Source: Actinomycetes bacterium
Lineage (GTDB): Bacteria; Actinomycetota; Acidimicrobiia; Acidimicrobiales; Ilumatobacteraceae
DNA: 39,916 nucleotides
Reading direction: 5' to 3'
Assembly (NCBI GenBank): GCA_021414085.1
Contig: JAIOPC010000003.1
Coordinates: 1 to 39,916, forward strand
The notes beneath the pieces are model-generated. The model made no database searches, was not told the origin of the DNA, and was given only the letters and a program-made list of their open reading frames with translations. Made by a program: the position numbers and the translations under genes. Shown piece after piece: positions 1 through 39,177 of this stretch; the stretch's first letter is position 1, and each line of letters opens with the position of its first letter.

Positions 1-160
1 TCACGCACGATGGGCCGACAATTCACAGTCAAGACACGTCGGTCAGTCACACCCAGGGTCAAACCCAACAGCGAGACCACCACCCGGATCATGCCCCCAG
101 GCGTCGACCCCGGGCGCCATCACATAATGGCTGTCACACCCAGTCCGTAGAGTGCTGCCG
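1..160. other. Left-edge region before the AddB-like gene
   Basis: No gene can be called confidently here. The 11-base word GTCACACCCAG occurs twice, at 46-56 and 133-143. On the minus strand an open frame starts at an ATG at 92-90 and runs off the left edge with a hydrophobic start (Val/Leu-rich), so the beginning of a divergent membrane or secreted protein is possible. A plus-strand frame is also open from the edge to a stop at 148-150. Neither is long enough to judge. The last bases carry the putative promoter of the downstream gene. Confidence 0.3.
148..153 (+). promoter_or_regulatory. Putative -10 box (TAGAGT) of the AddB-like gene
   Basis: TAGAGT fits the TANNNT -10 consensus and lies 7 bases before the ATG at 161. 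That spacing would place transcription start at or next to the ATG, i.e. a leaderless mRNA, common in Actinomycetota. It also argues against the upstream in-frame GTG at 152, which lies inside the box. No convincing -35 was seen. Confidence 0.45.
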
Positions 161-19205: not shown

Positions 19206-20498
19206 CGCGTCGCCATCCGTTGGCCGCGGTTTGTCTCCCAGACGCCACAACATCACCCAGGCAGCGATTGCCAGCACGGCGTCGCCGGCATAGGAGCCAA
19301 TCACGGCTCCCTTCCAACTAATGCTGGGCACGAGCGTGATGTACAACACCATCGCGACTACCGCCGACGCCACGATGCACCACAGCCGGGCGACGGTATG
19401 CCCCAGGCCCATCAGCGCGTTGAGGGGAAAGTGCGTAAAGCCACGCACGATCATCAGCGGTGCCAGCCAACGCGTGATCGAGATTGCTCCGGAGAATCCG
19501 TCACCGACGACAAGCGGCAGCGCAATCGGCGCGGCAAGCAGCAGGCCCAGCGCGGCAACAGTGGTGTACGCCGTCGTGGCCATCGTGTACTTGGCCGCGC
19601 GCCGCATCTGATTCCCAACTTTCGGGTCAACGAATGTCCGGTGGCTCGAGGCCACCAGCGCATTGATCGGAATCACCGCGAGCAGCACCATGCGATAGGC
19701 AGCTGCGTAGAGACCAAGGTCGGCGCCGAGACCGTTCGCCGACATCGTCAACTTGTCGCCGTCGTTGTGCAGGTTGAACACCAGCAAGGTCGACGACATC
19801 GTCAGCGTTGTCGCAACGTGCTTGCGTCGCAGCCGCCCAAGTCGTCGCGGCACGTCGACCGATGCGGTGACCTTCCAGAAGGCAACCGCACCGATCACCA
19901 CACAGCAGATTGAGTAGACGATGCCGTAGGAGCGCAAGGTGAGCGAGTCTGTGAAGTACAGAGCGACGACCGCAACTGTCTTCACGACAACAAGACTGAG
20001 CTGCAGCACGACGGTCGCCCGGAACCCGTTGACGATCAGGCGCAACGTTCTTGCGATCTGTACGAGCGTCGTTCCAAACAACTCGGCGACCATGAACAGC
20101 ACCACGGTCCAGATCGACAAGCGAGGCAACAGAAACTGCGATGTCGCCAGGACGATCACGACTGAGATCCCGATGAAGACTGCGTAGATCGAGAAGAAGT
20201 GCGCGCTCACCGTTCGCGCGGAGGAACCCATTGCCGATTGCAGGAACGCGAGCCCGGGGCCGATGTGAGCCAACGCCAGTGAAACACCGATCAGGCTGTA
20301 CATCGCGGCGAACGACCCGTAGTCGGTGGGGCCCAACCCACGGCCAACGAGCGCAAAGAACACGAACGTTCCCACCAACTGGCAAACCTCGAGCACGAGA
20401 CCAGAGGCACCGTCGCTGAGGGCTTGACGCCCCACACCGAAACGCGATGTGACCGCCGCCAGCGCGCCGCGCCGCGCGTTCGGGTCGGGCGTCGTCAC
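19158..20498 (-). CDS. Wzx-type polysaccharide flippase
   Basis: 446 residues from GTG 20498, chosen because it overlaps the upstream gene's TGA by four bases; the frame is open further upstream. About twelve to fourteen hydrophobic helices occur throughout. The early motif VGRGLGPTDYGSFAAMYSLIG (split across helices 1 and 2) is typical of the MATE/Wzx oligosaccharide flippase group, which moves undecaprenyl-diphosphate repeat units across the membrane. It lies last in the minus-strand operon 25223 to 19158 with the polymerase/ligase, acyltransferase, GT2 and chain-length genes, exactly the partners of a Wzx/Wzy pathway. Confidence 0.82.
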   Translation of the reverse strand: MTTPDPNARRGALAAVTSRFGVGRQALSDGASGLVLEVCQLVGTFVFFALVGRGLGPTDYGSFAAMYSLIGVSLALAHIGPGLAFLQSAMGSSARTVSAHFFSIYAVFIGISVVIVLATSQFLLPRLSIWTVVLFMVAELFGTTLVQIARTLRLIVNGFRATVVLQLSLVVVKTVAVVALYFTDSLTLRSYGIVYSICCVVIGAVAFWKVTASVDVPRRLGRLRRKHVATTLTMSSTLLVFNLHNDGDKLTMSANGLGADLGLYAAAYRMVLLAVIPINALVASSHRTFVDPKVGNQMRRAAKYTMATTAYTTVAALGLLLAAPIALPLVVGDGFSGAISITRWLAPLMIVRGFTHFPLNALMGLGHTVARLWCIVASAVVAMVLYITLVPSISWKGAVIGSYAGDAVLAIAAWVMLWRLGDKPRPTDGDASEAAMAQVDASYPDE

Positions 20499-21712
20499 GT
20501 CTTGGCCCGCGACAAGGTGGCGAACACGATGAGCAACGCTGGCCACACCCCGTACGCGGGCAGTGCCTCCGAGAATCCGAACGACATCACGATTGCGCAG
20601 AACAGCAACGTCAGGCGGCCGAACGCGTCGTCGCGCAATAGCCCCCGCCACCCGGAACGAACGGTGCTGAGGAGTTGCAGCACATACAACGCCAGCCCGA
20701 TTGCGCCAAGGCGCAACATCAGATCGAGCGCGGCGTTGTGTGCGTGGGCCACCAGGAAGCCGTTGTGGATGTTGATCGAACGAATCGGCTCGGCCCAGAT
20801 GTTCTCCCACACGCCGTAGCCGTAGCCCTGCCAGAAGCGGTGACTAATCGCGTTGGTCACCCCTTCCCAAATCACTGTTCGGCTTGAGAAGGTGAGGTCT
20901 TTACCACTGAGCATGACCACCGAAGCAAACATCTCCGCAGCGACCAACGTCGCGACCAGCGCCGCTGCCATCAGCAAAGAACCCGCCGAACGCCCCAGGC
21001 GCTGCACGACACCCTTGTAGCCGCCCAACATCCAGTTAACGATCAACAGCATCACCAGCGTGGCCAGCCCTGTTGTCGTATCACCAAGGATGAGTAGTCC
21101 GGCAACGAACACCATGAACCACCGGCGAAACGTTCGGTTGGGGTGAAAACACAGCACGGCCGATGCCGTCAACAGCAGACAAGGGGCCATGGTGTTCTTG
21201 TGGATGAAGCCGCCGTGCAATCCGGGAACCGGACCGCCAACTGAATAGGCGCTGCCTGGCTGCACCGCCAACGCAAAGAAGATGAGGCCAATGGCGATGT
21301 ACCCACTGCGCAGCAGGCAACGCACAAAGTCGTCACGCCCGAGCACCTGTGCGACTACGACGATCGTGATGATCGTTGCCAGATCGCGGCTTGACGCGCT
21401 GATCCACCCTGCGCGGTTGGTGTCCCAGTTGTACGAAGCCACCCACCACGCCAGGTAGACCAAGCTGATAATGGGCAGGAACACCTTCGTCAGCGATCGC
21501 GGTGGCGAGACGATGAGGGTTGCCAACAACAGCATCGCCTGCACCCCGATGTACTTCATCGGCGTCAGAGCAAACAGAAGTGTGTACGCGCCGAAACCGT
21601 CGACGAACGCGAACGTCAGGCTGACGAGTGCGAGCTGGCGCCACAAGGCCGGCCTCGGCCCGCGCATAGCTGTCTCGTCGGCCCAGACACCAGCTGGTCG
21701 TGCGTCAAGCAT
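20495..21712 (-). CDS. O-antigen polymerase/ligase (Wzy/WaaL-like) membrane protein
   Basis: 405 residues from ATG 21712, which overlaps the upstream stop by eight bases; a GTG at 21733 is the alternative. There are about ten to twelve helices. The Wzy_C/O-antigen ligase signature is present: a loop with VPGLHGGFIHKNTMAP, then GDTTTGLATLVMLL, and the large periplasmic loop SSRTVIWEGVTNAISHRFWQ with GYGYGVWE and VAHAHNAALDLMLRLG. These proteins polymerise or transfer lipid-linked glycan units outside the membrane. Given its neighbour Wzx and Wzz-like genes, polymerase is the more likely role; ligase cannot be excluded. Confidence 0.8.
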   Translation of the reverse strand: MLDARPAGVWADETAMRGPRPALWRQLALVSLTFAFVDGFGAYTLLFALTPMKYIGVQAMLLLATLIVSPPRSLTKVFLPIISLVYLAWWVASYNWDTNRAGWISASSRDLATIITIVVVAQVLGRDDFVRCLLRSGYIAIGLIFFALAVQPGSAYSVGGPVPGLHGGFIHKNTMAPCLLLTASAVLCFHPNRTFRRWFMVFVAGLLILGDTTTGLATLVMLLIVNWMLGGYKGVVQRLGRSAGSLLMAAALVATLVAAEMFASVVMLSGKDLTFSSRTVIWEGVTNAISHRFWQGYGYGVWENIWAEPIRSINIHNGFLVAHAHNAALDLMLRLGAIGLALYVLQLLSTVRSGWRGLLRDDAFGRLTLLFCAIVMSFGFSEALPAYGVWPALLIVFATLSRAKT

Positions 21713-22847
21713 GACGGGCTCGCTGTCGAACACGTCGACCGAACTCGATCGCCGGACGCTCGATCAACCGATACGACAGCCACGCGGCCGCGAACGACAG
21801 CACTACCTTGGACGTCACCAACAATGCGCGGGGCACATCCGGGTAGCGCTCTTCGCTGAGGATCGTGAAGATCGTCGCGTGCCACAGGTACAGCGAGTAC
21901 GAGAGGCGCCCGAGCCAGCGCATCAGCGATGTCTGCAACGGCGCGGCGAAGATGTTCTTTTGGTTGGTGACGAGTTCCGCGAGGACGACGACGAAGCACG
22001 CACTCAGCGCCACCCCGCGAATGTCGTACGTATCGTGCGGTAGATACCAGTCGGCGGCGAACAAATCGAACGTCACGCCAGCACACGCCAACGCGAACAG
22101 CCACCGCGGCACCCGCCACCGCCCGGCGTCGTCGGTGTGCAGCATCGCCGCCAGTAGACATCCGAGGGCGAGACCCTCGAAGTCGAGGAAGGGAATCGCC
22201 AACCAGTGCGGATAGTCCAGCACGCCGGCGACGAGCACGCGCCCGAGCACCACACTGATCAGCGCAACGGCGGCGAACCACATCGCAAAGCGCCGGGTGG
22301 CGCGAAAGGCCATCGGCACCACGCAGAGCACGATCGGCCACACGAGGTAGAACTGCTCCTCAATTCCGAGCGACCACGTGTGCCCTAGGGCGCCGCGTGG
22401 CTCGAAGCCGTAGAACACCGGCCACAGATTTCCCATTGACCCGCCAGCGAGAGCGATCTCGCGCCGCAACGGCTCGCCCACACCGCTCATGAACGTGAAC
22501 GACGCGACCAGCAGGAAGGCCAGCATCACGAACAGCGGCGGGAAGATCCGAAACAGTCGACGAAGGTAGAACTGGGACAGCGACAGCCCACCCGTGCGGT
22601 CGGCCTCTTCCAGCGCCAGCTTCGTAATCAGGAAGCCCGACAACACGAAGAACAACATGACCCCGGAGCCGCCGCCGGGAAACACCGGTGAGTAGAGGTG
22701 AACGAGAAACACCGTTGCGATGGCAACGCCGCGAAGACCATCGAGCACCGGCAAGTGCCCCATCGGTTGATGCGCCAGCGGGTTTGCCGCACTTGGCAAC
22801 GTTGTTGCTCGCGATGCCGTATCTGGGCTGCTGGTGTCGGCGCTCAT
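21705..22847 (-). CDS. Acyltransferase family 3 (OafA/YrhL-like) membrane protein
   Basis: 380 residues from ATG 22847, which shares ATGA with the upstream GT2 stop. It starts with a short cytoplasmic stretch, then LDGLRGVAIATVFLVHL (35-51) with the conserved His at 50. FYLRRLFRIFPPLF follows, carrying the usual Arg pair, and then LGHTWSLGIEEQFYLVWPIV, the strongest family mark. About ten helices follow, ending with YSLYLWHATIF and RLIERPAIEFG. It O-acetylates (or otherwise O-acylates) sugars of the exported glycan. It lacks the C-terminal SGNH domain seen in some OafA proteins. Confidence 0.93.
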   Translation of the reverse strand: MSADTSSPDTASRATTLPSAANPLAHQPMGHLPVLDGLRGVAIATVFLVHLYSPVFPGGGSGVMLFFVLSGFLITKLALEEADRTGGLSLSQFYLRRLFRIFPPLFVMLAFLLVASFTFMSGVGEPLRREIALAGGSMGNLWPVFYGFEPRGALGHTWSLGIEEQFYLVWPIVLCVVPMAFRATRRFAMWFAAVALISVVLGRVLVAGVLDYPHWLAIPFLDFEGLALGCLLAAMLHTDDAGRWRVPRWLFALACAGVTFDLFAADWYLPHDTYDIRGVALSACFVVVLAELVTNQKNIFAAPLQTSLMRWLGRLSYSLYLWHATIFTILSEERYPDVPRALLVTSKVVLSFAAAWLSYRLIERPAIEFGRRVRQRARHA

Positions 22848-23671
22848 CGCAGCAGACCCCGAAGTCGACCGGCAGCGATCGCGGTGCGGCGGCAGACGCT
22901 GGTTGCCGAGCGACGCGCGGTGCGTTGCCCGTTGGGCCGAAGCATGCCGAACCGCGATGCCGCGACCCCGCCTTCGGTTCCCGGCGTTCCGAACGTTCGC
23001 AGCACCTCGCTCATGCCGCGACCGTACGAGTAGTGCTGGCGCAACATCGCAAGCACACCGGCGCGGTGGCGGTAGTCGATGACCGCGCCCCCGACGTGAC
23101 CGATTGTGTAACCGGCACGCACTAACGACCAACTGATTGCGATGTCTTCGCAGCGGGTGAGGGTTTCGTCGAAACCGCCAACAGCCTCGAATGCTTCCCG
23201 ACGAATCGCCAGGTTGCCGGTGAGCAGATAGGGCTTGCCGAGAAAGCTATTCAGCTCGCCCCGTGTGGGCGCTGGGTACCAATGGCGCATCCGTTCGTCC
23301 GCAAACACGTCGACGACGTCGCCAGAAACCGCGTCGAACTCATCAAGCCCGTTGACCAGCCCCGACAACCAGCCCTCGTGCACCAAGTCGTCGGCGTCGC
23401 AGAACCCGATCGCGGCACAGTTGGTCGCGGCGGCGCCGACGTTCCGTGCGTGAGCAGCGCCCTTGTGGTCGCTGGAATCGACGATACGCAGACGAGGATC
23501 GCCACTGGCCGCCGCAACGGATCGAACTTCGCTGACGACAGCCGGATCTGCGGAGTTCACCGAGAGCACGACTTCGCTCAGCGAGACACCCGACTGTGAC
23601 AGCACGCGCGCAACCTGCTCGCCGAATACGGCATCGATGGACCCCACCGGTATGACAACCGCGGTGTCCAT
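22844..23671 (-). CDS. Glycosyltransferase family 2 protein
   Basis: 275 residues from ATG 23671, which lies 4 bases after the stop of the chain-length gene. The start MDTAVVIPVGS is a typical GT2 first strand. GAAHARNVGAAA is followed by FCDADDLVHEGW (D92, D94, D95), the metal-binding region, and LTRCEDIAISWSLVRAGY supplies the ED pair. The C terminus is basic (RRTAIAAGRLRGLLR). It is cytoplasmic, with unknown sugar. It belongs to the Wzz-GT2-acyltransferase-Wzy-Wzx operon. Confidence 0.87.
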   Translation of the reverse strand: MDTAVVIPVGSIDAVFGEQVARVLSQSGVSLSEVVLSVNSADPAVVSEVRSVAAASGDPRLRIVDSSDHKGAAHARNVGAAATNCAAIGFCDADDLVHEGWLSGLVNGLDEFDAVSGDVVDVFADERMRHWYPAPTRGELNSFLGKPYLLTGNLAIRREAFEAVGGFDETLTRCEDIAISWSLVRAGYTIGHVGGAVIDYRHRAGVLAMLRQHYSYGRGMSEVLRTFGTPGTEGGVAASRFGMLRPNGQRTARRSATSVCRRTAIAAGRLRGLLR

Positions 23672-23675
23672 CGCG

Positions 23676-25223
23676 TTAGCGACGACGAAGCGGCGCGCTC
23701 GGGGTGGTAACCGCCAACACGTTGGGCTGTTGTTCGCGCAGCTCACGCCCGATCAGGGCCAGCGCTTGCTTCTGTTGACGACCGGTCGGAATGGCGAGTA
23801 CCACGGCATCGGCGATGTGAGCGAACTGGACGGTCGACGCCGCACCCAAGAACGGGCCACCATCGACGATGACGACGTCGGCCAGCGGGTCGAGGCGAGC
23901 GAGCAGTTTGGGCACATCTTCGCGACGAAGCACGGCGCCGTTGTCCATCATGTCGGCCGCAGCAACCACTTGCAGGGCGGGTACGCGCGTTGGGCGCAGC
24001 AGTGTGGCCGTACCGGGGGCGCGTGGTGGACCACCGCTGTATGCGGGCAAGCCGGCAGGCTGTAGTTCGAACAATTGCGAGAGCTCGGGGTGTAGCGGGT
24101 CGGCATCAACGACGACGACCTCTGCCCCATTGAGAGCAAAGCGGTTGGCCAAAGCGCCCGCGAGGCTGGTGGTACCTACGCCAACGTCGGTGCCAGTAAC
24201 GAGCACGACGAGTGCGTGATGCTGACGATCGAGCGCGTCGGTTCGCACGCGCAGGTGATCGATGAACGGCGTTGCGTTCGCAGGCAGATACTCAACAACC
24301 GCGCGGCGATCATTGGAGATGCGATAAGTCGGCACCGAACCGACGACAGGCACCTGGAGGATCTCGGAGGCTTCCTCGTTGTCCAACACCTTGCGCGAGA
24401 TCCTGGCGGCGACAACGGCCAGGACGAGCCCGAACACCAAACCACCCAGCACGCCGGCGGCGAGGATCTTGCGATTCGATGAGACGAGTGGTGTCGTCGG
24501 AAGCGTCGCGGCTTGCACGACCTGGCTCGACACGCGAACTTGCTCGCCGAGCTCAAGTTCGTTCTTGGTGGCACTGACACCCTGGAACTGCGAAAGCACT
24601 GCTTGCTTCTGCGACACAAGGCTGGGCACGACCTGCTCGATAGGCGGGATCGGCGGGCAGGTGGTGGTGCACACGGTGCCGGCTGCGGGAAGATACGGTG
24701 CCATCGCTGCCGCGATCTCTGCGTCGATGGCGGTCAGTTGTTCTTGCAGCGCGACCAGCTTGGCATCGACCCCCGCCAGGCTGGAGGTACGCGTTGCATC
24801 GACCTGCGTCTGCAGATTGGCGAAGTACTGCTGCACGTAGATCTTGGCGATCGTCTGCGAGAGCTGAGCATCGGCAGTCGAGACGGTGAGCTCGACGATG
24901 TCGGTGTTCTGCGCCTGTACGACGGAGAGTGTGCCAAGAATGCTCTCCGCGGTCGCCCCATCGCCAATCACCTGAGCAACCGCATCGGCGGAGCTGTGCG
25001 ACCCGAGGACGAGCAATTGCCCGGCGACATACCGGTCTGAGCTCAGGCCGCCGGTCTCGGGAGACACGCTCGGCGGGGCGATATAGAGCAAGGCTCGTGA
25101 TTGATACACCGTCTCGGTATCGCCGCGCAGCGTCACGCCGACAGCGCTACCAATCAGCAGGCCACCGACGGCCAGCCACCAGTAGCGCTTGACCGCGCTT
25201 ACGACGAACGAGAGTTCCACCAC
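23676..25223 (-). CDS. Wzz/tyrosine-kinase-like chain-length protein with degenerate ATP site
   Basis: 515 residues from GTG 25223 (a second GTG follows directly). It has the actinobacterial CpsCD-fusion layout: helix 1 about 14-33, a periplasmic coiled region to about 245 with a CTTTC pair (185-189), helix 2 about 253-273, then a cytoplasmic P-loop domain. Such proteins set glycan chain length and, as BY-kinases, autophosphorylate. Here the Walker A reads GTDVGVGTTS (344-353), so the essential Lys is Thr351. Walker A' VVVVDADPLHPE and Walker B VVIVDGGP are kept. The C terminus (APLRRR) has no tyrosine cluster. A non-catalytic scaffold is therefore likely. It heads the minus-strand polysaccharide operon and is divergent from the GH74-like gene. 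Confidence 0.85.
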   Translation of the reverse strand: MVELSFVVSAVKRYWWLAVGGLLIGSAVGVTLRGDTETVYQSRALLYIAPPSVSPETGGLSSDRYVAGQLLVLGSHSSADAVAQVIGDGATAESILGTLSVVQAQNTDIVELTVSTADAQLSQTIAKIYVQQYFANLQTQVDATRTSSLAGVDAKLVALQEQLTAIDAEIAAAMAPYLPAAGTVCTTTCPPIPPIEQVVPSLVSQKQAVLSQFQGVSATKNELELGEQVRVSSQVVQAATLPTTPLVSSNRKILAAGVLGGLVFGLVLAVVAARISRKVLDNEEASEILQVPVVGSVPTYRISNDRRAVVEYLPANATPFIDHLRVRTDALDRQHHALVVLVTGTDVGVGTTSLAGALANRFALNGAEVVVVDADPLHPELSQLFELQPAGLPAYSGGPPRAPGTATLLRPTRVPALQVVAAADMMDNGAVLRREDVPKLLARLDPLADVVIVDGGPFLGAASTVQFAHIADAVVLAIPTGRQQKQALALIGRELREQQPNVLAVTTPSAPLRRR

Positions 25224-25235
25224 ACACCGCCTTGA

Positions 25236-25247
25236 GAATCGAGATTC
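25236..25247. repeat. Short inverted repeat in the divergent promoter region
   Basis: GAATC, two bases, GATTC: perfect 5-base arms. It lies 13 bases upstream of the chain-length gene's GTG, where a regulator could block its transcription. Short arms make chance possible. Confidence 0.35.
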
Positions 25248-25259
25248 AGCCGTAAAGGC

Positions 25260-25271
25260 TATCGGCCGATA
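25260..25271. promoter_or_regulatory. Candidate operator: perfect 12-base palindrome TATCGGCCGATA
   Basis: The sequence equals its own reverse complement over all 12 bases and lies centrally in the 100-base gap between divergent start codons at 25223 and 25324, 37 bases before the putative -10 box of the GH74-NRPS-PKS operon. That position suits a dimeric regulator acting on both operons. No regulator gene is in this window. Confidence 0.45.
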
Positions 25272-25308
25272 CTCAGCTGTTCTGAACCTCCGATCCCCCG
25301 ACCGTTGT

Positions 25309-25314
25309 TACCCT
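25309..25314 (+). promoter_or_regulatory. Putative -10 box (TACCCT) of the GH74-NRPS-PKS operon
   Basis: TACCCT lies 9 bases before ATG 25324, matching the TACCNT boxes upstream of 8606 and 16508. It would give a leaderless transcript covering four coupled genes up to 39177. Confidence 0.45.
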
Positions 25315-25323
25315 CTCGCGCCA

Positions 25324-27681
25324 ATGACACGCGTCGTTGGTCGTGTTTCGTCGCGTCCGCTTGTGGGGTTGGCGATCACGATCAGCTCCCTGTTCGGCAG
25401 CGTCGTCGCCAGCTCGTGCAGCCTTTCCGAATCTGGGTCCGACACAACGCTGGAGGGGGTTGATGGGTCTGATCCGCCCGTGACGGCCGGCCCGCAGGCC
25501 GACATCGACGTCGCGCCAGTCGTCCAGGGCACCTATATCTGGCGCGCGATGCCAGTTGGGGCGGGAGGGTATGTGACCGGGATCGTTGCAACTGCAGCGT
25601 CACCGGCCGCGATGTATGCACGCACCGATGTCGGCGGCGCCTACCGGTGGGAGCCGGCCTCGCAACAGTGGACGCAGTTACTCGACGCGACATCGCTTCC
25701 CGGTGCACGACCTGGCGACGTGCTCAGCGTCGACAGCATTGCGGTGGCACCGTCACTTGGATCACGGGTCTACCTCGCACTCGGTAACGACGAGAATCCC
25801 GCGCCGGACACTCCCGTTGCAGGTGCCGGTCGGATACTGGTGAGCGACGACAGCGGCGCAACGTGGCGTGCCGCTGACCAACGCTGGTTCATCAGCGGCA
25901 ATCAACGCTTCCGCGCGGGGAGCGAACGACTCGTTGTTGACCCCGCCAATCCCGATCACGTGTTGTTCGGCAGTTCGCGCGAAGGCCTGTTCCAATCGTT
26001 CGATGCTGGTGCGACCTGGGCGCCGATACCGACGTCGATGGTGCCCGCTGGCATCATCGACGATCCAGCCAGCGACCAACCGGGAGTGTCCGCGGTCGCA
26101 TTTGTGGGCACGACAATGTTCGCGGCCGTCGCTGGCAGTGGCATGTACATGAGCAGCGACAACGGCGCGTCGTGGACGATGGTGCGACCGTTCGATGCCG
26201 CGCAATACGGTGCCGGCGCTATCGAGGTCGCTGGCGACCTGTGGTTGGCGATCAATCGGACCGACGGCCTGCCCGCCGACTTGTCAGTGTTCGATTTGGA
26301 CGCCGCGTCGTGGACCGACCTTCCCATACCGTCGACCTCGCTAGTCGCCGTGTTCGCGGTCGACCCGACCGACGCGTCGCGCGTTGCACTTGCAGACGAA
26401 GCGGTGCGCAATGGCCACATCTGGACATCAACTGACGGCGGGCAGAGTTGGTCGGCGCACGACATCGACATTGCGTCGCCGCAAATTCCGTGGTTAGCGA
26501 ACACAGACCTCGATGACTTCATGAGCACCGGACGCCTGATGTTCGACCCTGTTGACGGCTCGCTGTGGTTCGCGGAAGGAATGGCCGTTTGGCACAGCAC
26601 CGATCCGCAGGCCGCAACCATCACCTTTACCTCTGTCGCGCGCGGCATCGAGGAAACGGTTGCATCGGCCGTGATGGCCGCGCCGGGTGGTGTACCCATC
26701 GGAGCAATCGCCGATCGACAGGGCTTTCGCTTCGACGACACGGCGCGGTATCCGGAGCGAACGCTGATCGACGACACCTTCGTTGGCGGAACCGGCCTGG
26801 ACTACAGCGGCGGGAACCCGGAGGTCGTCGCGTGGGTCGGTGCCGAGTACCACATCTACTACTCCGAAGAGCGCCGGGCCCGTGGCGCACTCTCGACCGA
26901 CGGCGGCATCACGTGGCAACAGTTCAGCGGCACTACTCCGGAGATGTTCGGTGGCGAGGTAGCGGTGTCGGCGGTTGATCCCGACGTGTTGGTGTGGCTC
27001 CCGACTCACTTCAGCGACCCCTGGGAATATCTGCGCAGCCCGGTCGGCGTGTACTACAGCCACGACGGGGGTCAGTCGTGGACGCACACCGATTCAGTCG
27101 CTGGCATCGACTCGTTCCATCGCTTCCTGTGGTGGTTCAACCGGCGAGCGTTGGCGGCCGATCGGGTAAACGGCAGCTTCTATCTGATGTCCGATGAGGG
27201 TCGCTTCTTCACCAGTAGCGACGGTGCGGCCACGTGGCAAGAAGCTGCCAACGCACCGCCTTGCCTCGACGCGAACGCATGTCATGTGCTCGGTCAACTT
27301 CTTGCACAGCCCGATCGCGCCGAGCGGTTGTGGGCGGGCGTCGGCATCGACGGTCTGTATCGCACCGACGATGCGGGGCGCACCCCATGGAGCAAACTGA
27401 CGGGTGTCGACGAAGTGCGTGCGCTGGGCTTCGGTGCGCCGATGATCGCGGGTGGAGCCGCCACGGTCTTTGTGTACGGCCGCGCGAACGGCGACGCCAA
27501 AGCCGGCCTTTATCGCAGCGACGACGACGGCACTACGTGGCGACTGATCACTTCGTTCCCTGCCGGGTCCTACACCGACATCAACGCCATCAGCGGCGAT
27601 CCCGACGTGCCAGGTCGCGTGTACATCGCATTCAGCGGCACTGGATTCGCACAAGGCGACCCGATCGGAGCGACGGGATGA
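25324..27681 (+). CDS. Secreted GH74-like (xyloglucanase-type) beta-propeller protein
   Basis: 785 residues from ATG 25324. The frame is open upstream, but this ATG gives a signal sequence and has the -10 box. The signal peptide ends near Cys32 (GSVVASSC), a weak lipobox, so it may be a lipoprotein. The mature part starts like GH74: IWRAMPVGAGGYVTGIV, then YARTDVGGAYRW (D102, in a strongly conserved acidic motif of the family), VDSIAVAP, SERLVVDPANPDHVLFGSS. Eight Asp-box repeats (S-x-D-x-G-x-T/S-W) are visible: DDSGATW, FDAGATW, SDNGASW, TDGGQSW, TDGGITW, HDGGQSW, SDGAATW and DDDGTTW. They indicate two propellers. GH74 enzymes cleave beta-glucan backbones such as xyloglucan. The stop overlaps the NRPS start (ATGA). 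A sialidase/Vps10-like binding role is the alternative. Confidence 0.8.
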   Translation: MTRVVGRVSSRPLVGLAITISSLFGSVVASSCSLSESGSDTTLEGVDGSDPPVTAGPQADIDVAPVVQGTYIWRAMPVGAGGYVTGIVATAASPAAMYARTDVGGAYRWEPASQQWTQLLDATSLPGARPGDVLSVDSIAVAPSLGSRVYLALGNDENPAPDTPVAGAGRILVSDDSGATWRAADQRWFISGNQRFRAGSERLVVDPANPDHVLFGSSREGLFQSFDAGATWAPIPTSMVPAGIIDDPASDQPGVSAVAFVGTTMFAAVAGSGMYMSSDNGASWTMVRPFDAAQYGAGAIEVAGDLWLAINRTDGLPADLSVFDLDAASWTDLPIPSTSLVAVFAVDPTDASRVALADEAVRNGHIWTSTDGGQSWSAHDIDIASPQIPWLANTDLDDFMSTGRLMFDPVDGSLWFAEGMAVWHSTDPQAATITFTSVARGIEETVASAVMAAPGGVPIGAIADRQGFRFDDTARYPERTLIDDTFVGGTGLDYSGGNPEVVAWVGAEYHIYYSEERRARGALSTDGGITWQQFSGTTPEMFGGEVAVSAVDPDVLVWLPTHFSDPWEYLRSPVGVYYSHDGGQSWTHTDSVAGIDSFHRFLWWFNRRALAADRVNGSFYLMSDEGRFFTSSDGAATWQEAANAPPCLDANACHVLGQLLAQPDRAERLWAGVGIDGLYRTDDAGRTPWSKLTGVDEVRALGFGAPMIAGGAATVFVYGRANGDAKAGLYRSDDDGTTWRLITSFPAGSYTDINAISGDPDVPGRVYIAFSGTGFAQGDPIGATG

Positions 27682-30600
27682 CACCGTTGCGCTGCGCTCT
27701 CATCGGAGCCGACACACTCCTGATCGAGTGCGGGCAGATTCTGCGCGAACGCGGCCATGACATCGTCTCCGTCGCGGCGGGCAGCGCGAGGGTCGCAGCG
27801 TGGGCAATCCACGCTGGGGTATCGGTACACGAGATCGAACAGCTCGATGAGTGGGCCGAGGATCTGCGCCGACACTCGGTCGACTATCTCTTTGCCATCA
27901 CGCACCTCGAGTTGCTACCTGCATCGGTTGTCGCCGCGGCCAACCGCATGGCGATCAACTTCCACGACGGGCCGCTTCCCGAGTACGCGGGGCTCAACAC
28001 TCCGGCGTGGGGCATCCTGCGCGGCGAGCGCGAGTGGGGGGTGACATGGCATCGCATCGATGAGGGTGTCGACACGGGCGACGTGATCGCGCAACGCCGA
28101 TTCGCCATTGCCGAGCGCGAGACATCGCTGTCGCTGAACACGCGCAACTTCGAAGAAGCGATCGACAGCTTCAACGACCTCCTCAACATGTTGGAAGCCG
28201 GTCAGGTCACCGCACTGCCGCAGGGCGCAAATGCGCCCAGGGCAGTCTTCCGACGCGCCGACCGACCCGACGGCGTGCTGGACTTCAGCCAGACGGCCGT
28301 CGAAGTCGACCGAGTCGTGCGCGCACTCCACTTCGGCCCGCACCCGAATCCAGTCGCCGCGTCGGTCGTGTGGCACCCACTTGCCGCGATCGTGGTCGGA
28401 TCATCCGACATCGTCGATATCGATAGCCCCAGCGCGCCCGGCACTTTGCTCGCCGTCGGGGTCGGGACGCTTACCGTTGCCTGTTCGACTGGCGCGGTTG
28501 TGCTCGGAGACTTGCACGGGCTCGATGGCACACCATGCAGCGCCACGCAGTTCTTGGCGGTAACAGGCGCGAAGGCTGGCGACGTCCTGCCACCGCTCGG
28601 CATCGATCAGCGCCAATGGCTCACCAGCTGCGCACACGCGAGTCAGCCCGACGAGGCCACGCTCGTCGCACGGCTTGGCGAGATCGCACCTGCGATGTTT
28701 CCTTGGCCACACGACGCGCAGCAGGTGCGCGGCTCCGCACGCGCCGTCGCGAACGTTCCGCTGACGCTCGCCTGCGAACCGGCACGAGTTGTCAGTGCGC
28801 TCGCTGTCTTGCTGACGCGGCTGAGCCCTGAGGGCGGCTCCGACGTCGTGCTTGCCGGTCCACCGGTTCCGGACTTCGCACAATCGCTGATGAGCAGTGA
28901 GACCGTGTTCAGTCTCGCGACGCAGACCCTCGACGGAACTCGCACTTCCAGTTGGTTTCGCGACCTGGTCGCGCGGGCACCTTCGCTCGCCGCTCGCCCT
29001 GAGTTGGCGAGCGGGCTTGATCTGCCCATCGGGATTCGCGTCTCGCGCAACGACACGCCGCTTCCTCAGCCAGTTGTTGTGCTGCAACCGTCGGATGCCG
29101 ACAACGGCTGGGAGCTCGAGTACGACGCAGGTCGGGTCAACGAAGCCGACGTCAACGAGTTCGCGCGCTGCCTTGCCCTCACCATTGCGGCGTTCGACAG
29201 CCACGACCGGTCCCCCGCTGATGTCCCGCTGCTGTCGGCCGAAACCTACGAACGCGTCGTTCACGAGTGGAATGCGACTGACGCGGTGTACGAATCCGCG
29301 TGCATCCACGATCTGATCGCCCGACAGATCGCTGCCACTCCGCAACGGCAGGCCATCGTTTGCGGCGCCGCTTCGCTGACCTACGCCGAGCTCGGGCAAC
29401 GATCGAATCGTCTCGCCGCGCACCTGCAGCAGCTCGGCGTCGGCCCGGGGTCGCTTGTTGGCGTGTACGTCGAACGGAGCATCGACCTCGTGGTGGCGGT
29501 GTTGGCGGTGCTGCAGGCCGGTGGCGCGTACGTTCCCCTCGACCCCGCCTATCCGACGGACCGCGTGCGACACATGATCGCCGACAGCGGGGCGCGCGTC
29601 ATCGTGTGCCCCGACAAGGATCGCGCCAAGCTGCCATTGCCAATCGACGCCGTCGACCGAACGATCGTTGCTGTCGACGCACCGCGCGCCGACGGCGCGT
29701 TGCCGACTCACCAGGCGAAGCCCGACGACATTGCGTATTGCATCTACACGTCAGGAAGTTCGGGCACACCAAAGGGCGTGTTGGTCGAGCATCGCAATGT
29801 GGCCAACCTGTTTGCGGCGATGGACCACATCATCAAACGCACCGACAGCGACACGTGGTGCGCGGTGACCAGCTTGTCCTTCGATATCTCTATCCTCGAA
29901 CTGCTGTACACGCTTGCCCGCGGCATGCGTATCGCGCTGTACGTGCCCGACACCTATCAACTGGTCGCTGCCCGCCGACCGATGGACTTCTCGCTGTTCT
30001 ACTTCTCCGCCGACGAGGCCCACGCAACCGACGGAGGGAAGTATCAGTTGCTGCTCGACGGCGCACGGTTCGCGGACGCCAATGGGTTCTGCGCGGTGTG
30101 GACTCCGGAACGTCACTTCCACGCGTTCGGTGGGCTGTACCCGAACCCGGCGGTGACCGCGGCAGCAATCGCCACCATCACCAAACGAGTCAGCATTCGG
30201 GCTGGATCAGTGGTGTTGCCCTTGCATCACCCGGTGGAGATCGCCGAAGCCTGGAGCATGATCGACAATCTCTCCAACGGCCGGGCAGGCGTTGCCTTTG
30301 CCAGCGGCTGGCAACCCAACGACTTCGTGCTTCGCCCGCAGAATTTCGCGCATGCGAAGGAAGCAATGTTCGAAGGCATCGAGCAGATTCGTCGGCTATG
30401 GCGCGGCGAGTCGGTGAGCTTCGAGGGTCCTAACGGCAAACCTGTCGCGGTGGCGACATTGCCGCGACCAGTGCAGGCGGAACTTCCGACATGGATCACC
30501 ACGGCTGGCGACCCGGCAAGTTTTGCCGCTGCCGGGACCGCAGGAGCGAACCTGTTGACCCACCTTGTCGGCCAGTCAATCGATCAACTGGCCTCCAAGA

Positions 30601-32267
30601 TTGGGGCTTACCGCACGGCCCGCGCCGCCGCTGGCTACGACCCAACGACCGGCGTAGTCACCCTGATGTTGCACACATTTGTCGGCGACGACGACGCCAC
30701 TGTTCGGGCGACGGTACGCGAGCCGCTGCGCAGGTATCTCAACACCTCATACAACGTGCTGCGCGAACATGCCTGGTCGTTCCCCACGTTCCGCCGTCAC
30801 GACGGCGCACCAGTCACCAACCCCGACGATCTCGTCGACGACGACATGGCCAACCTTGCTGGCGACGATCTCGACGCAGTCCTCGACTTTGCGGCTGAGC
30901 GCTACTACGAGAACAGCGGGCTGTTCGGCACACCCGACCAAGTGCTGCCACGCGTCGCAAAACTTCATCAAATCGGTGTCGACGAGATCGCCTGCCTAGT
31001 CGACTTCGGTGTCGCGCCCGACACTGTCCTTCGCAACCTTCCGCATCTCGCCCGCGTTCGCGAAGTGGTCGCCAAGCAGTCGACAACAAACCCTGATGAC
31101 GCGAGCGACGCATCACTCGCCGAACTGATTGCCACCTCGTCAACAACGCACATGCAGTGCACGCCGTCGATGGCACGAATGCTGACTCACGACCCAGCCA
31201 TGCGAACAGCGCTCGGTGGCGTGCAACAACTGCTCGTGGGCGGCGAGGCGCTGCCAACCGACCTGGCGCACGAATTGCAGTCACTAGTCGGCGGCGCCGT
31301 CACCAACATGTACGGCCCTACTGAAACAACAGTGTGGTCAAGTTCCTGGCCGCTGCAGTCGGACTGCGACTGGACGCCAATCGGAAACCCGATCGCGAAC
31401 ACACAGATCTATGTGCTTGACCACGTCGGGCAGCCGACGCCTCCGGGAGTCGCGGGTCACCTGTGGATCGGTGGTGACGGCGTCGCCCGCGGCTACCACC
31501 AACGGGCTGAGCTGACGGCGGAACGCTTCCGACCAAACCCGTTTCGCGAACACGGTCGCATGTATCGCACGGGCGACCTTGCACGCTGGCGCGCAGGGCC
31601 CGACGGCTGCGCCACCCTCGAATTCATCGGGCGAGCCGACGAACAGGTCAAGCTGCGCGGTCATCGCATCGAGCTTGGCGAAATCGAGTCGGCGATCTGC
31701 CGGATCGCCGACGTCGAGGATTGCGCGGTGATCGTGCTCGACCGCTCGGATGATCGAGCAGACCAACAGTTGGTGGCTTACGTCGCTACCGGCATGGCGC
31801 GGACCTTCGACACCACCGCCATGCGCGAACAGCTGCGCACCCGACTTCCGGAAGTGATGGTGCCCAACCAGGTTGTTGTGCTGTCGGCGCTACCGCGCAC
31901 GCCGAACGGCAAGCTCGACCGCCGCGCATTACCTGCGCAAGCAGCGGAAGCGGCGATCGACGTGGCGCAGCCCACCACCGATGTCGAGGGACAAGTGCTC
32001 GCCGACTGGCACGACGTCCTAGCAACGAACGCGATCGGCATCGACGACAACTTCTTCGACGCCGGCGGGCACTCTTTGCTCGTCGTGCGCCTGCACCGAC
32101 AGCTACAGCAGACGCTTGGGCGAACGATTCCACTCACCGACCTCTACCGCTTCCCGACGGTGCGAACGTTCGCCGCCTCCCTCGCAAGCAACGCGCCCTC
32201 CCCAGCGATCGGGACTGCGCTCGATCGCGCCGCGCGTCGACGCGCCAGCACGCAGGGTCGACCATGA
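27678..32267 (+). CDS. NRPS: formyltransferase - C remnant - A(Gly) interrupted by flavin monooxygenase - carrier
   Basis: 1529 residues from ATG 27678 (ATGA overlap, GGAG 7 bases upstream). The formyltransferase domain (1 to about 310) has N94, H96 (NFHDGPLPEYAG) and D132 (GVDTGD), with the 36-residue His-to-Asp spacing of methionyl-tRNA formyltransferase. Residues about 330-525 resemble the tail of a condensation domain without HHxxxDG. The A domain has YTSGSSGTPKG (690), FDIS (D736), YGPTET (1212), YRTGDLARW and K1412 in PNGKLDR. Between FDIS and YGPTET, about 769-1135, lies a luciferase-like monooxygenase of the MupA/Atu3671 type (AVWTPERHFHAFGGLYPNP, FASGWQPNDF). The carrier domain is GGHSL (S1466). 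Read by alignment to GrsA, the specificity residues are DILQLGMVWK, close to the glycine code. It starts the chain; its stop overlaps the PKS start. Confidence 0.9.
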   Translation: MTPLRCALIGADTLLIECGQILRERGHDIVSVAAGSARVAAWAIHAGVSVHEIEQLDEWAEDLRRHSVDYLFAITHLELLPASVVAAANRMAINFHDGPLPEYAGLNTPAWGILRGEREWGVTWHRIDEGVDTGDVIAQRRFAIAERETSLSLNTRNFEEAIDSFNDLLNMLEAGQVTALPQGANAPRAVFRRADRPDGVLDFSQTAVEVDRVVRALHFGPHPNPVAASVVWHPLAAIVVGSSDIVDIDSPSAPGTLLAVGVGTLTVACSTGAVVLGDLHGLDGTPCSATQFLAVTGAKAGDVLPPLGIDQRQWLTSCAHASQPDEATLVARLGEIAPAMFPWPHDAQQVRGSARAVANVPLTLACEPARVVSALAVLLTRLSPEGGSDVVLAGPPVPDFAQSLMSSETVFSLATQTLDGTRTSSWFRDLVARAPSLAARPELASGLDLPIGIRVSRNDTPLPQPVVVLQPSDADNGWELEYDAGRVNEADVNEFARCLALTIAAFDSHDRSPADVPLLSAETYERVVHEWNATDAVYESACIHDLIARQIAATPQRQAIVCGAASLTYAELGQRSNRLAAHLQQLGVGPGSLVGVYVERSIDLVVAVLAVLQAGGAYVPLDPAYPTDRVRHMIADSGARVIVCPDKDRAKLPLPIDAVDRTIVAVDAPRADGALPTHQAKPDDIAYCIYTSGSSGTPKGVLVEHRNVANLFAAMDHIIKRTDSDTWCAVTSLSFDISILELLYTLARGMRIALYVPDTYQLVAARRPMDFSLFYFSADEAHATDGGKYQLLLDGARFADANGFCAVWTPERHFHAFGGLYPNPAVTAAAIATITKRVSIRAGSVVLPLHHPVEIAEAWSMIDNLSNGRAGVAFASGWQPNDFVLRPQNFAHAKEAMFEGIEQIRRLWRGESVSFEGPNGKPVAVATLPRPVQAELPTWITTAGDPASFAAAGTAGANLLTHLVGQSIDQLASKIGAYRTARAAAGYDPTTGVVTLMLHTFVGDDDATVRATVREPLRRYLNTSYNVLREHAWSFPTFRRHDGAPVTNPDDLVDDDMANLAGDDLDAVLDFAAERYYENSGLFGTPDQVLPRVAKLHQIGVDEIACLVDFGVAPDTVLRNLPHLARVREVVAKQSTTNPDDASDASLAELIATSSTTHMQCTPSMARMLTHDPAMRTALGGVQQLLVGGEALPTDLAHELQSLVGGAVTNMYGPTETTVWSSSWPLQSDCDWTPIGNPIANTQIYVLDHVGQPTPPGVAGHLWIGGDGVARGYHQRAELTAERFRPNPFREHGRMYRTGDLARWRAGPDGCATLEFIGRADEQVKLRGHRIELGEIESAICRIADVEDCAVIVLDRSDDRADQQLVAYVATGMARTFDTTAMREQLRTRLPEVMVPNQVVVLSALPRTPNGKLDRRALPAQAAEAAIDVAQPTTDVEGQVLADWHDVLATNAIGIDDNFFDAGGHSLLVVRLHRQLQQTLGRTIPLTDLYRFPTVRTFAASLASNAPSPAIGTALDRAARRRASTQGRP

Positions 32268-35200
32268 GCGAGTCCATTGCGATCGTCGGCATGTCGCTAC
32301 GTGTGCCGGGCGCGGCCACGCCCAACGCCTTTTGGAACAACCTCGCTGCGGGCGTCGAAAGCATCGTCACGCTGAGCGACGAACAACTCGCGGTTGCGGG
32401 TGTCTCTCGCGAGGCGATGCAGCGGCCGGGATACGTCCGACGAGCCGCAACCCTTGATCGAATGGAATGGTTCGATGCGGAGTTCTTCGGCTTCTCGCCG
32501 AAAGACGCGGCGATCATGGACCCACAGCATCGCCAGTTCCTCGGCGCGTGCTGGGAAGCGTTGGAAGATGCTGCGCACCCGCCATCCACGTTCGACGGCT
32601 CGATCGGCGTCTTCGCCGGCTGCGGCATGGGCTCATACTTCGCGTTCAACCTGCTGAGCAATCGCCAGCTTGTTGACGAAGTGGGAATGTTCCTGTTGCG
32701 CCACACCGGAAACGACAAGGACTTTCTCGTCACCCGCGCCAGTTACCTGCTCGACCTGCAGGGACCAGCCGTCAACGTGCAGACGGCGTGTTCGACTTCG
32801 CTGGTCGCTACTCACCTTGCCGTGCAGAACCTGCTGAGCGGCGAGTGCGATCTTGCGCTGGCTGGTGGGGTGACGATCGAGATTCCACATGGCCGCGGAT
32901 ATCAATATCAGTCGGGCGAAATCCTCTCGCCCGACGGCCACTGTCGCGCATTCGATGCCGATGCCGCCGGAACCGTGTTCGGGAGTGGTGTCGGTGTCGT
33001 CGTGTTGCGTCGACTCTCGGAGGCCGTGGCCGATGGCGACCATATCTACGCGGTCGTTCGTGGCACTGCGATCAACAACGACGGTGCGCGCAAGGTGGGC
33101 TACCTCGCTCCATCGATCGACGGTCAGGCGGCCTGCATCGCGGAAGCGCTTGCGGTGGCGGATGTCGCGGCAACGAGCGTGCAGCTCGTGGAGTGCCACG
33201 GCACCGGCACCGCGATGGGCGACCCAATCGAGATCGCAGCGCTCGATCAAGCATTTGGTCGACCGACCGATGGGGTGCCCTACTGCCAGATCGGCAGCGT
33301 GAAGACCAACATCGGTCATCTCGACACTGCGGCCGGAGCCGCCAGCCTGATCAAGGCGAGCCTGGCATTGCATCACCAGGCAATTCCGCCGAGCCTGCAC
33401 TTCCAACGCCCCAGCCCCAACAGCGTTCTGGAGGGCAGCGCGTTTCGGGTAGCCACTGAGCTCACGACGTGGCCTGCCGCAAATGCACCGCGACGCGCCG
33501 GGGTCAACTCGCTTGGCGTCGGCGGCACCAATGCCTTTGCCGTACTAGAGGAAGCACCGGCCCGAGCCGCGAGTACTGCGGCGGTCGGGGCGCAACTGTT
33601 GGTGCTCTCCGCGCGTAACCGAGCCGCGCTCGACGACGCCAGCGAGCGTCTTGCTCGCCACCTCGACGAGCACCCCGATCTCAACCTGGCCGATGTTGCA
33701 TACACGCTGCACGCTGGTCGCCATCAGTTTGCGGAGCGACGAGTCGTCGCCGCATCGTCGGTCGCAGAGGCAGCGCGGTTGCTCCGCAGCGGCGATCCGC
33801 GACGGGTGTTCACCCACAGCGCCGGATCACGACGCCCACCGGTGATCTTTCTGTTTCCCGGCGGTGGAACGCAGTACCCGCAGATGGGCGCCCAGTTGTA
33901 CGCCAGCCAGCCGACCTTCCGACGGCACGTCGACGACGGCTTGCGTCTCGCGCAAGAACTTCACGGAGTCGATCTTCGACCACTTCTGCTCGCCGATCAC
34001 GATGAGAACGCAGACGGTGCCGTTGCGTTGCACGATCCATCGCTACAACTCCCGGCGCTGCTCATCATCGAACACGCTCTCGCGCAACTGCTGATCAGTC
34101 GGGGCGTGGTCCCGGCGGCGCTCGCCGGTCACAGTGTTGGCGAGTGTGTCGCCGCGTGCATTGCGGGCACGATGACGTTCGCGGACTGCCTCGGTCTGAT
34201 CGTGCTGCGCGGCAAGTTGATGGATCGCACACGTGGGGGGATGCTGTCGGTGCGCATGTCGGCCGGAGAATTGAAGCCGATTCTCGACGAGTGCGGTCTT
34301 GACCTCGGAGTCATCAACGCTCCCGACTTGTGCGTCGCATCCGGCACAGAGGCCGGCCTCGTCGCGCTTGAGGGGCGGCTCGAGCAACTCGGTGTCGAGT
34401 TCAGTCGCGTGCGCATCAACATCGCGGCGCACAGTCGCTTACTCGACCCCGTACTCGAAGAGTTCCGCGCGTATCTGAAGACCATCACGCTCTCGGCGCC
34501 GAACATCGCTTGGGTGTCGAATCAGACCGGGACGTGGGTCACTCCAGCGGAAGCCACCGACCCCGAGTACTGGGTGCGCCAATTGCGCAGCACCGTCGAC
34601 TTTGCTGCCAACATCGCGGCTGTCGCACACGAGCACACCGACGCCCTCTTCGTGGAGGTTGGGCCTGGCACGACGTTGTGCTCGCTGGCGCGACTGAACC
34701 CGGCGGTCGGTGCCCGCCACGGCACCGTGCACACGATGCGCCAGGCAGACGAAGCCGTCGACGACTCGACGATGCTGCTCACCGCACTCGGTCGCTTGTG
34801 GGCCTATGGCACGGAGTATCCGACCGCGCATGCGTACGGGGCCGGTACAAGACACCGTCTCAGCTTGCCGACCTACGCGTTTCAAGAACAGCGCTACTTC
34901 ATCGAAGCGCGGTCTGACGACCGCAGCGATTCGTCGGAGGCAGCCGGCCTCGAGCGCGCGCCCGCGGATCAGTGGTTCTGGGAACCAGTGTGGCGAGCAC
35001 ACTCCGTTGCTGAACCGACGGGCGACGCCATGACGTACCTCGTGTTTGCCGATGTCGTTGGCATTGCCGACAATGTGGTGGCACGACTTCGGGCGGCAGG
35101 ACATCGCGTGGCCGTGGTGCGGGCGGGCGACTCGTATCGCATGATTCGCGCCGACGACTACTTGCTTGCGGCCGAGCACGGACGCAGCGGCTACGAGCAG

Positions 35201-38626: not shown

Positions 38627-39177
38627 GGGTCGCCGCGCTTGCAATCGACCCGCTGCACATCGCGGCGTTACACGCAGAAGAATTCGCCCTTGTTGCGACA
38701 GCGCGCGCTGAACGGCTGGCCGAGTTCGCGAGCGGTCGTGCGTTGCTGCACGACATGCTCGACACGGCGGCGCCGATCGTGCGCGCTACCAACGGAGCAC
38801 CAGCGTGGCCGAAGGGAGTGGTTGGCTCGCTGGCCCACGATCGCACGCAAGCGGTAGCGGTCGTCGCGTCGGCAGCGGAGTACCGGGCGATCGGCATCGA
38901 CATCGAGCCCCACGGCGCAGGCGACGACGACGAACTGCGCGAAGCCGTGTTGCGCACCGACGATCCCGACATTGATGCGTTGGCCGCTTTCGTGATGAAG
39001 GAAGCCGCCTACAAAGCGTGGAGCGACCTCGGCGGCGAGATTGTCGGTCCGCTGGAGGTCCGGCTCACGGTCGACGCAAGCAACTTCGCCGCGGAGATGC
39101 CAAATCCCGGAATGACTGTGCACGGAACAATCACCGACACAGGCGGAAACTGGCTAGCAATCGCGACGATCCGCTAG
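38623..39177 (+). CDS. 4'-phosphopantetheinyl transferase (Sfp/EntD-like)
   Basis: 184 residues from ATG 38623, overlapping the PKS stop as ATGA; the frame is open upstream. It transfers the phosphopantetheine arm of CoA to carrier-domain serines. The two family motifs are present: GIDIEP with metal-binding D93 and E95, and FVMKEAAYKAW with K126, E127 and K131. GSLAHDRTQAVAVVAS matches the EntD-like substrate motif. As the last gene of the coupled operon it almost certainly activates S1466 of the NRPS and S1792 of the PKS. Confidence 0.92.
   Translation: MRVAALAIDPLHIAALHAEEFALVATARAERLAEFASGRALLHDMLDTAAPIVRATNGAPAWPKGVVGSLAHDRTQAVAVVASAAEYRAIGIDIEPHGAGDDDELREAVLRTDDPDIDALAAFVMKEAAYKAWSDLGGEIVGPLEVRLTVDASNFAAEMPNPGMTVHGTITDTGGNWLAIATIR

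Follow-up and report, generated by a model that had tools for sequence, protein, structure and literature searches.

In Wzc of Escherichia coli, the octamer becomes less stable when the Tyr tail is phosphorylated and recovers on dephosphorylation, and cycling between the two is needed for capsule (PMC11986026, PMC12004946); the octamers were solved using an inactive mutant, K540M (PMC11986026). EcpK of Myxococcus xanthus, a BY pseudokinase that belongs with the PCP-2 protein EpsV to a Wzx/Wzy system, has been proposed by its authors to act as a phosphorylation-independent scaffold (PMC12004946). PssP2 of Rhizobium leguminosarum is described as a one-chain PCP-2 protein with a degenerate kinase domain, reported without Walker A, A' and B and without the Y-cluster, and a pssP2 mutant alters the length distribution of the EPS (PMC4182512). 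Fused PCP-2/pseudokinase proteins are attributed to Cuthbertson et al., and the examples named there are Gram-negative (PMC12004946).

The protein described here is encoded in the window, by which we mean the whole stretch of 39,916 nucleotides that was analysed, from a host in the Actinomycetota. It resembles Wzc, as seen in the K540M structures 7nhr, 9exo, 9exq and 9i2q, in its architecture and in the fold of its kinase domain, and K540M can be regarded as the laboratory counterpart of its Thr-351; it differs in that Wzc, in its wild-type form, has a Tyr tail and is active as an autokinase, and identities in the structural alignments are 12–18%. With EcpK it shares a BY-kinase fold, the lack of a working Walker A motif and the lack of a Tyr tail, but EcpK is a separate protein without any of the three Walker motifs, whereas the window domain is fused to its PCP-2 part and keeps A' and B, which also sets it apart from PssP2. 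The hosts differ as well, that of EcpK being Gram-negative. CapB1 of Staphylococcus aureus keeps the Walker A Lys. It has been discussed as a possible BY pseudokinase, and in this respect is like the window protein, but it is a protein on its own, whose lack of activity is treated with reference to N-terminal and Y-cluster contacts (PMC3795738).

Gene and protein sequence

The gene lies on the reverse strand at positions 23676–25223 of the window (stop codon included), as an ORF of 515 amino acids with a GTG start and no internal stop, in a reading frame that is open over 543 codons. We describe it as a putative chain-length regulator of the PCP-2 type to which a BY-pseudokinase domain is fused, on the basis of the ORF, of weak BY-kinase and AAA_31 matches below the curated cut-offs and of a Wzc-like model. 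The coordinates that follow in this section and the next are all on the same strand.

The initial annotation had noted a Thr in place of the Walker A Lys, the retention of the other two Walker motifs and the loss of the Tyr-rich tail, and all three observations were borne out. In the P-loop GTDVGVGTTS (residues 344–353; 24165–24194), placed by alignment to relatives, Thr-351 (codon 24171–24173) occupies the position of the Walker A Lys in the GEGK[ST] loop of BY-kinases. The Walker A' motif VVVVDADPLHP (residues 369–379; 24087–24119) keeps both Asp-373 and Asp-375, and the Walker B motif DVVIVDGGP (residues 449–457; 23853–23879) keeps Asp-454. The C-terminal tail is short (residues 506–515; 23679–23708) and free of Tyr, and no Tyr occurs in the protein beyond residue 470. 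At the site of the [ED]xxRxxR ring-interface motif of BY-kinases (residues 319–329; 24237–24269), located by column counts, the window protein has P319, D322 and R325, the clade-typical residues being D322, R327 and an acidic residue at 329. Assignment as a MinD/ParA ATPase was ruled out, the P-loop reading GTDVGVGTTS and not KGGxGK[ST]; the loop KGGxGKT is found in ParA-type proteins from the same genome.

Predicted fold

The window protein matched the NCBIfam profile TIGR01007 (tyrosine autokinase) at 3.1e-11, with 43.2 bits, below the cut-off of 108.05, and Pfam AAA_31 at 4.4e-4, with 20.7 bits against a cut-off of 27. A Pfam Wzz match was found at the expected place (25065–25217), and since its 13.2 bits are below the cut-off of 25.5 we use the term ‘PCP-2-type’ rather than calling the protein a plain Wzz member. 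The kinase domain of BceF was a match among PDB sequences (2.5e-5).

An AlphaFold2 model was built from 14 sequences (L046 was omitted from the alignment, its match starting in a different frame from its ORF) and had a pLDDT of 81.7 and a pTM of 0.48. It shows, in one chain, the order expected of a PCP-2 protein, namely two helices around an outer domain, followed by a P-loop domain. The hydrophobic helices, at residues 15–31 (25131–25181; seen both in the model and as a hydrophobic stretch of sequence) and 251–275 (24399–24473; from the model), are presumed to be transmembrane, by comparison with Wzc. A Foldseek search with the model returned full-length Wzc at the top (E 6.3e-20), with BY-kinase domains further down, and the structural matches to Wzc span residues 2–511. 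With VIA-align, the kinase part superimposed on 3la6_D over 220 residues (Z 21.9, rmsd 4.3) and nearly the whole chain on 7nhr_C over 422 residues (Z 21.4, rmsd 11.8), the latter rmsd being expected if the domains are placed differently. The model thus predicts a PCP-2-like architecture in which one chain also carries the kinase-like domain. Like the BY pseudokinases EcpK, HfsB and PssP2, the protein appears to combine a BY-kinase fold with the absence of the catalytic residues and of the Tyr tail.

Loss of the Walker A Lys among relatives

An ortholog with Lys would have pointed to a sequence error, as the initial annotation recognised; such orthologs were looked for and were absent from the genomes searched. 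In a first search of 61 genomes (the host's own and those of 60 relatives), none of the four closest full-length orthologs, L003 (80% identity), L004 (39%), L005 (38%) and L006 (33%), has the Lys; L005 has also lost the Walker B Asp, and two clade fragments, L007 (from the same genus) and L081, stop short of the Lys site. Named genomes, when scanned, yielded 14 loci, every one recorded under Actinomycetota or a group within it. Clade-level matches (at least 170 bits) were present in 25 of 397 genomes of the order Acidimicrobiales, where the matches next below the clade scored at most 149 bits and those read carry Lys. No further clade members were found at 1e-40 in 396 genomes across the phylum, the three other matches having GEGK loops. 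The 395 genomes of the class Acidimicrobiia yielded one relative from outside the order, L169 (genome G794), in which all three Walker motifs are gone and which stands at the far end of degeneration; another match from outside the order, L170, covers little past the N-terminal half.

For the tree, 132 rows were cut to 121 by dropping nine ParA/MinD-like rows, together with L081 and L086, which have too little of the kinase region. It was built without the P-loop columns and has no outgroup; Lys was taken as ancestral from the known BY-kinases. The window clade, set off from the other rows by a branch with an SH-aLRT of 98, comprises 33 rows, none of which has Lys, residue 351 being Thr in 14, Ser in 10 and Ala in six. 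Across the 121-row tree, the Lys state changed at least four times when starred branches are counted, and five times on the best tree.

A sequence error or a decaying pseudogene is therefore ruled out, by the 543-codon open frame, by the same change in the ortholog at 80% identity, by the clade-wide absence of Lys and by a dN/dS of about 0.05 (at a dS near saturation).

Tyr was counted in the first 60 residues after position 505. Among 52 Lys-less rows, 43 have no tail Tyr, seven have one and two have two, and among the 69 Lys-bearing rows 64 have at least two, three have one and two have none, one of these last (L031) truncated at a contig end. The Lys and the Tyr tail mostly change together, a pattern that is suggestive: an independent-pairs test gave four pairs on starred branches, of which 3.5 on average were concordant (p 0.125), a number of pairs too small for the association to become significant.

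Residues lost, kept and gained in the clade

We compared the 33 clade rows with the 69 Lys-bearing rows by column counts, from which gaps were omitted; the latter set is defined by having Lys, and was drawn from the search of relatives and from genomes searched with the clade profile or TIGR01007, so that it is not a random sample. The acidic residue two positions before the Lys, [ED]349, is present in 69/69 Lys-bearing rows and in 0/33 clade rows. The ring-interface motif [ED]xxRxxR at 319–325 is found in 46/69 and 0/33, respectively, and 23 Lys-bearing rows are therefore also without the full motif. The residues of the Mg2+ site have, on the other hand, been kept: S/T352 in 69/69 Lys-bearing and 31/33 clade rows, Asp-375 in 67/69 and 31/33, the Walker B Asp-454 in 69/69 and 32/33, and Asp-373 in all 33 clade rows. 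Four positions are gained in the clade, D/E322 (0/68 Lys-bearing rows against 28/33 clade rows), R327 (0/68 against 29/33), R361 (0/69 against 29/33) and R434 (3/68 against 31/33). Arg is found at position 347 in 21/33 clade rows, the window protein having Val-347.

When the window gene was compared with that of L003, dN/dS was lowest in the kinase-like part (0.05), which is the slowest to change, followed by the outer domain (0.13) and the membrane parts (0.20–0.25), these ratios being rough because dS is 1.96, near saturation; in the P-loop region alone the synonymous sites are saturated, and no dN/dS is given. On these comparisons, selection maintains the kinase-like domain for a role other than catalysis by way of the Lys.

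A second PCP-2-like clade without the Lys comprises ten rows (L102, L103, L104, L106, L126, L128, L131, L134, L135 and L136). Its P-loop includes NP[HQ]S in six of the ten, and it has no tail Tyr; the Walker B Asp is present in 1/10, Asp-373 in 0/10, and Asp-375 and S/T352 in 8/10 each. Nine of its members (all but L106) score above the TIGR01007 cut-off, as does L101 (133 bits), a lone Lys-less and tail-less protein within a Lys-bearing group. Homology-based annotation therefore calls for caution, ten proteins that lack both the Lys and the tail exceeding the curated cut-off for ‘tyrosine autokinase’. In L142, L144 and L145 the Walker A Lys is replaced by Arg (EGRTT), a substitution that may be conservative and need not mean a dead site.

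Lys-bearing BY-kinases in the same genomes

The genome that contains the window is 97% complete in 18 contigs and gave nine TIGR01007-type matches, one of them the regulator gene itself. Seven of the other eight were read (L035, L036, L038, L039, L040, L041 and L042) and have loops of the ParA/MinD/Mrp kind (KGGxGK[ST] or KGGTGRT); the ninth match (C7:15512, E 0.06) lies in an ORF of 474 residues, which we take to be Ffh. The second intact BY-kinase that the initial annotation thought worth seeking did not appear: no Lys-bearing BY-kinase was found among the TIGR01007-type matches of this genome, seven of the eight others having been read. Weak Wzz matches numbered three, namely the gene itself, one different protein and a 76-codon frame with a stop (on contig C17). 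Contig C17 also encodes L041, a ParA-like protein in which the KGGTGRT loop is fused to tetratricopeptide repeats (Pfam CbiA and TPR). A match to a low-molecular-weight phosphatase exists in addition, and no argument rests on it.

Across the genomes that hold a clade member, at least one Lys-bearing BY-kinase-like protein is present in 20/28, where many matches of about 50 bits or less were left unread. None was found in the remaining eight (G000, G001, G031, G123, G140, G155, G244 and G351), in which seven further low-scoring matches all have KGGxGK[ST]; G123 is a single contig and 98% complete, the other seven being incomplete drafts. Four of these eight (G031, G140, G244 and G351) have another Lys-less BY-kinase-like protein; the fragmentary clade gene of G244 does not include the kinase part. 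In 7/28 genomes (G052, G105, G222, G264, G301, G381 and G412) a Lys-bearing protein is encoded within 20 kb on the same contig, a count that contig ends may have lowered, and at L050 it is 2.8 kb away on the opposite strand. A partner kinase may therefore be relevant in some of the clade genomes, and none was found in others.

Genomic context

Downstream of the regulator, and in this order on the same strand, lie a family 2 glycosyltransferase (22844–23671; Pfam Glycos_transf_2, 5.1e-13; the listed ORF extends to 23746), a membrane acyltransferase (Acyl_transf_3, 3.1e-28; ORF as listed, 21705–23132) and a Wzy-like O-antigen ligase/polymerase (20495–21733; Wzy_C, 1.5e-10, 41.5 bits against a cut-off of 31.7), a context such as is expected of a PCP-2 protein. 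The ATG of the glycosyltransferase, at 23671, is four bases past the stop of the regulator. Farther along the window there are more glycosyltransferases and a WecG/TagA protein. Scans of 23 different window ORFs (20 against Pfam and 6 against NCBIfam) revealed neither a Wzx nor an initiating transferase; two initiating transferases are encoded on other contigs of the genome, one of them on C7, and no BY-kinase was noticed in the first 20 kb of that contig.

Fifteen loci (the window and L043–L056) were compared, one representative of each recurring gene cluster being scanned. Wzy_C recurs in eight, a G1P-cytidylyltransferase-like gene in seven, Wzx (Polysacc_synt) in six, an EPS_sugtrans initiating transferase in six, a family 2 glycosyltransferase in five and a BNR/sortilin protein in five; the gene calls in the relatives' loci, made from third-position GC, are crude, and in L043, L053 and L055 failed to pick up even the clade gene.

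Other features of the window may be recorded here. A sortilin/BNR-repeat protein (25189–27681, forward strand) with, by eye, a lipobox-like stretch adjoins the regulator gene and has BLAST-clustered relatives in L043, L052, L054 and L056. At 27234–39177 (forward strand) an NRPS-like protein (formyltransferase, AMP-binding and luciferase-like monooxygenase) is followed by a PKS and a phosphopantetheinyl transferase; this block adjoins the polysaccharide genes and has BLAST-clustered relatives in L043 and L044. At 152–6468 (forward strand) a PD-(D/E)XK nuclease stands beside a UvrD helicase-nuclease, presumably an AdnAB-like pair.

Discussion

We consider it probable that the window protein is a Wzc-type co-polymerase (PCP-2, with both halves in one chain) whose cytoplasmic BY-pseudokinase domain works without Tyr phosphorylation. 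The initial annotation had proposed a pseudokinase that still regulates Wzy-dependent polymerisation; the pseudokinase part is upheld at the level of sequence, by the clade-wide absence of Lys, the lack of tail Tyr, the purifying selection and the lack of a Lys-bearing BY-kinase among those of the genome's matches that were read, whereas the role in polymerisation is suggested by the fold and the neighbouring genes. The membrane and outer part would lie around the Wzy-like polymerase, whose gene is the third one downstream, or would touch it, and would influence polymer chain length. A cycle of Tyr autophosphorylation in cis is not expected from the kinase-like domain, which has neither the Walker A Lys nor the acidic residue at 349 nor a Tyr tail, and kinase activity has presumably been lost. 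The domain would instead probably serve as a scaffold, ring assembly or partner binding being set by protein contacts and perhaps assisted by a bound Mg-nucleotide. By analogy, the mechanism is most likely of the same sort as that of EcpK and PssP2, the pseudokinase domain determining contacts within the ring or with partners. Against this explanation, the Wzz and TIGR01007 matches are under their cut-offs, the assignment rests on profile and fold comparison with a pTM of 0.48, and the pathway is known here only in part, no Wzx or initiating transferase having been recognised among the window ORFs scanned. A pure scaffold, moreover, has no need of the Mg2+-site residues that nearly every clade row conserves.

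That conservation speaks for a different account, in which the domain binds Mg-ATP/ADP without the Lys and its nucleotide state, rather than phosphorylation, switches ring assembly. The initial annotation had also suggested regulation by nucleotide binding alone, which the kept Mg2+-site residues would permit. The second Lys-less clade, in which Asp-454 and Asp-373 have been lost, forms a contrast that favours it. The Lys-to-Met mutants Wzc K540M and CapAB K55M have, moreover, been solved, and three of the K540M entries, which carry tail changes too, are titled MgADP, so that loss of the Lys alone does not exclude ring formation or ADP binding; the Lys has been reported to stabilise, among its other effects, a state that cannot coordinate Mg-ATP efficiently (PMC8517177). 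The same second clade, however, largely keeps Asp-375 and S/T352, and conservation need not mean binding; L005 is without the Walker B Asp and L169, outside the order, without all three motifs, and we regard gating by nucleotide as possible but rather unlikely.

We think it still less likely that the pseudokinase enters mixed rings with a Lys-bearing BY-kinase and regulates it in trans. Such a kinase is encoded in most of the clade genomes, sometimes near the clade gene, as at L050, but none was found in eight, among them the window's own genome and G123, which is a single contig; no clade row has the ring-interface motif, and the authors of the EcpK study argue that such pseudokinases are independent of active BY-kinases (PMC12004946). 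An active ATPase or kinase, using a substitute basic residue such as Arg-347 or acting on another substrate, seems highly improbable: Arg-347 is common in the clade, but the window protein has Val there and no tail Tyr, and the Lys and the acidic residue 349 are absent from all 33 rows.

The category to which we assign the window protein, as a phosphorylation-independent BY pseudokinase, is already in print (EcpK, HfsB, PssP2), and the Actinomycetota clade does not figure among the literature matches listed. Among these matches, which cover few subscription journals, none describes BY pseudokinases from Actinomycetota, the loss of Lys and tail with a retained Mg2+ site, the altered interface motif, or changes repeated within one order. 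As a tentative proposal, about which we remain doubtful, a deep Acidimicrobiia clade might have swapped phosphorylation-driven ring cycling for a nucleotide- or contact-gated cycle, the Lys and the tail going together and the Mg2+ site being kept, and have rebuilt the ring interface with D322, R327, R361 and R434, similar switches having occurred several times in one order.

In the current model of PCP-2 proteins, the ring assembles and comes apart through rounds of Tyr phosphorylation, on which function depends. Proteins of the present type occur in several lineages of one order, sometimes in genomes in which no Lys-bearing BY-kinase was found, and, as natural one-chain proteins without the Lys and the Tyr tail, they allow one to ask what role the cytoplasmic domain has that is independent of phosphorylation.
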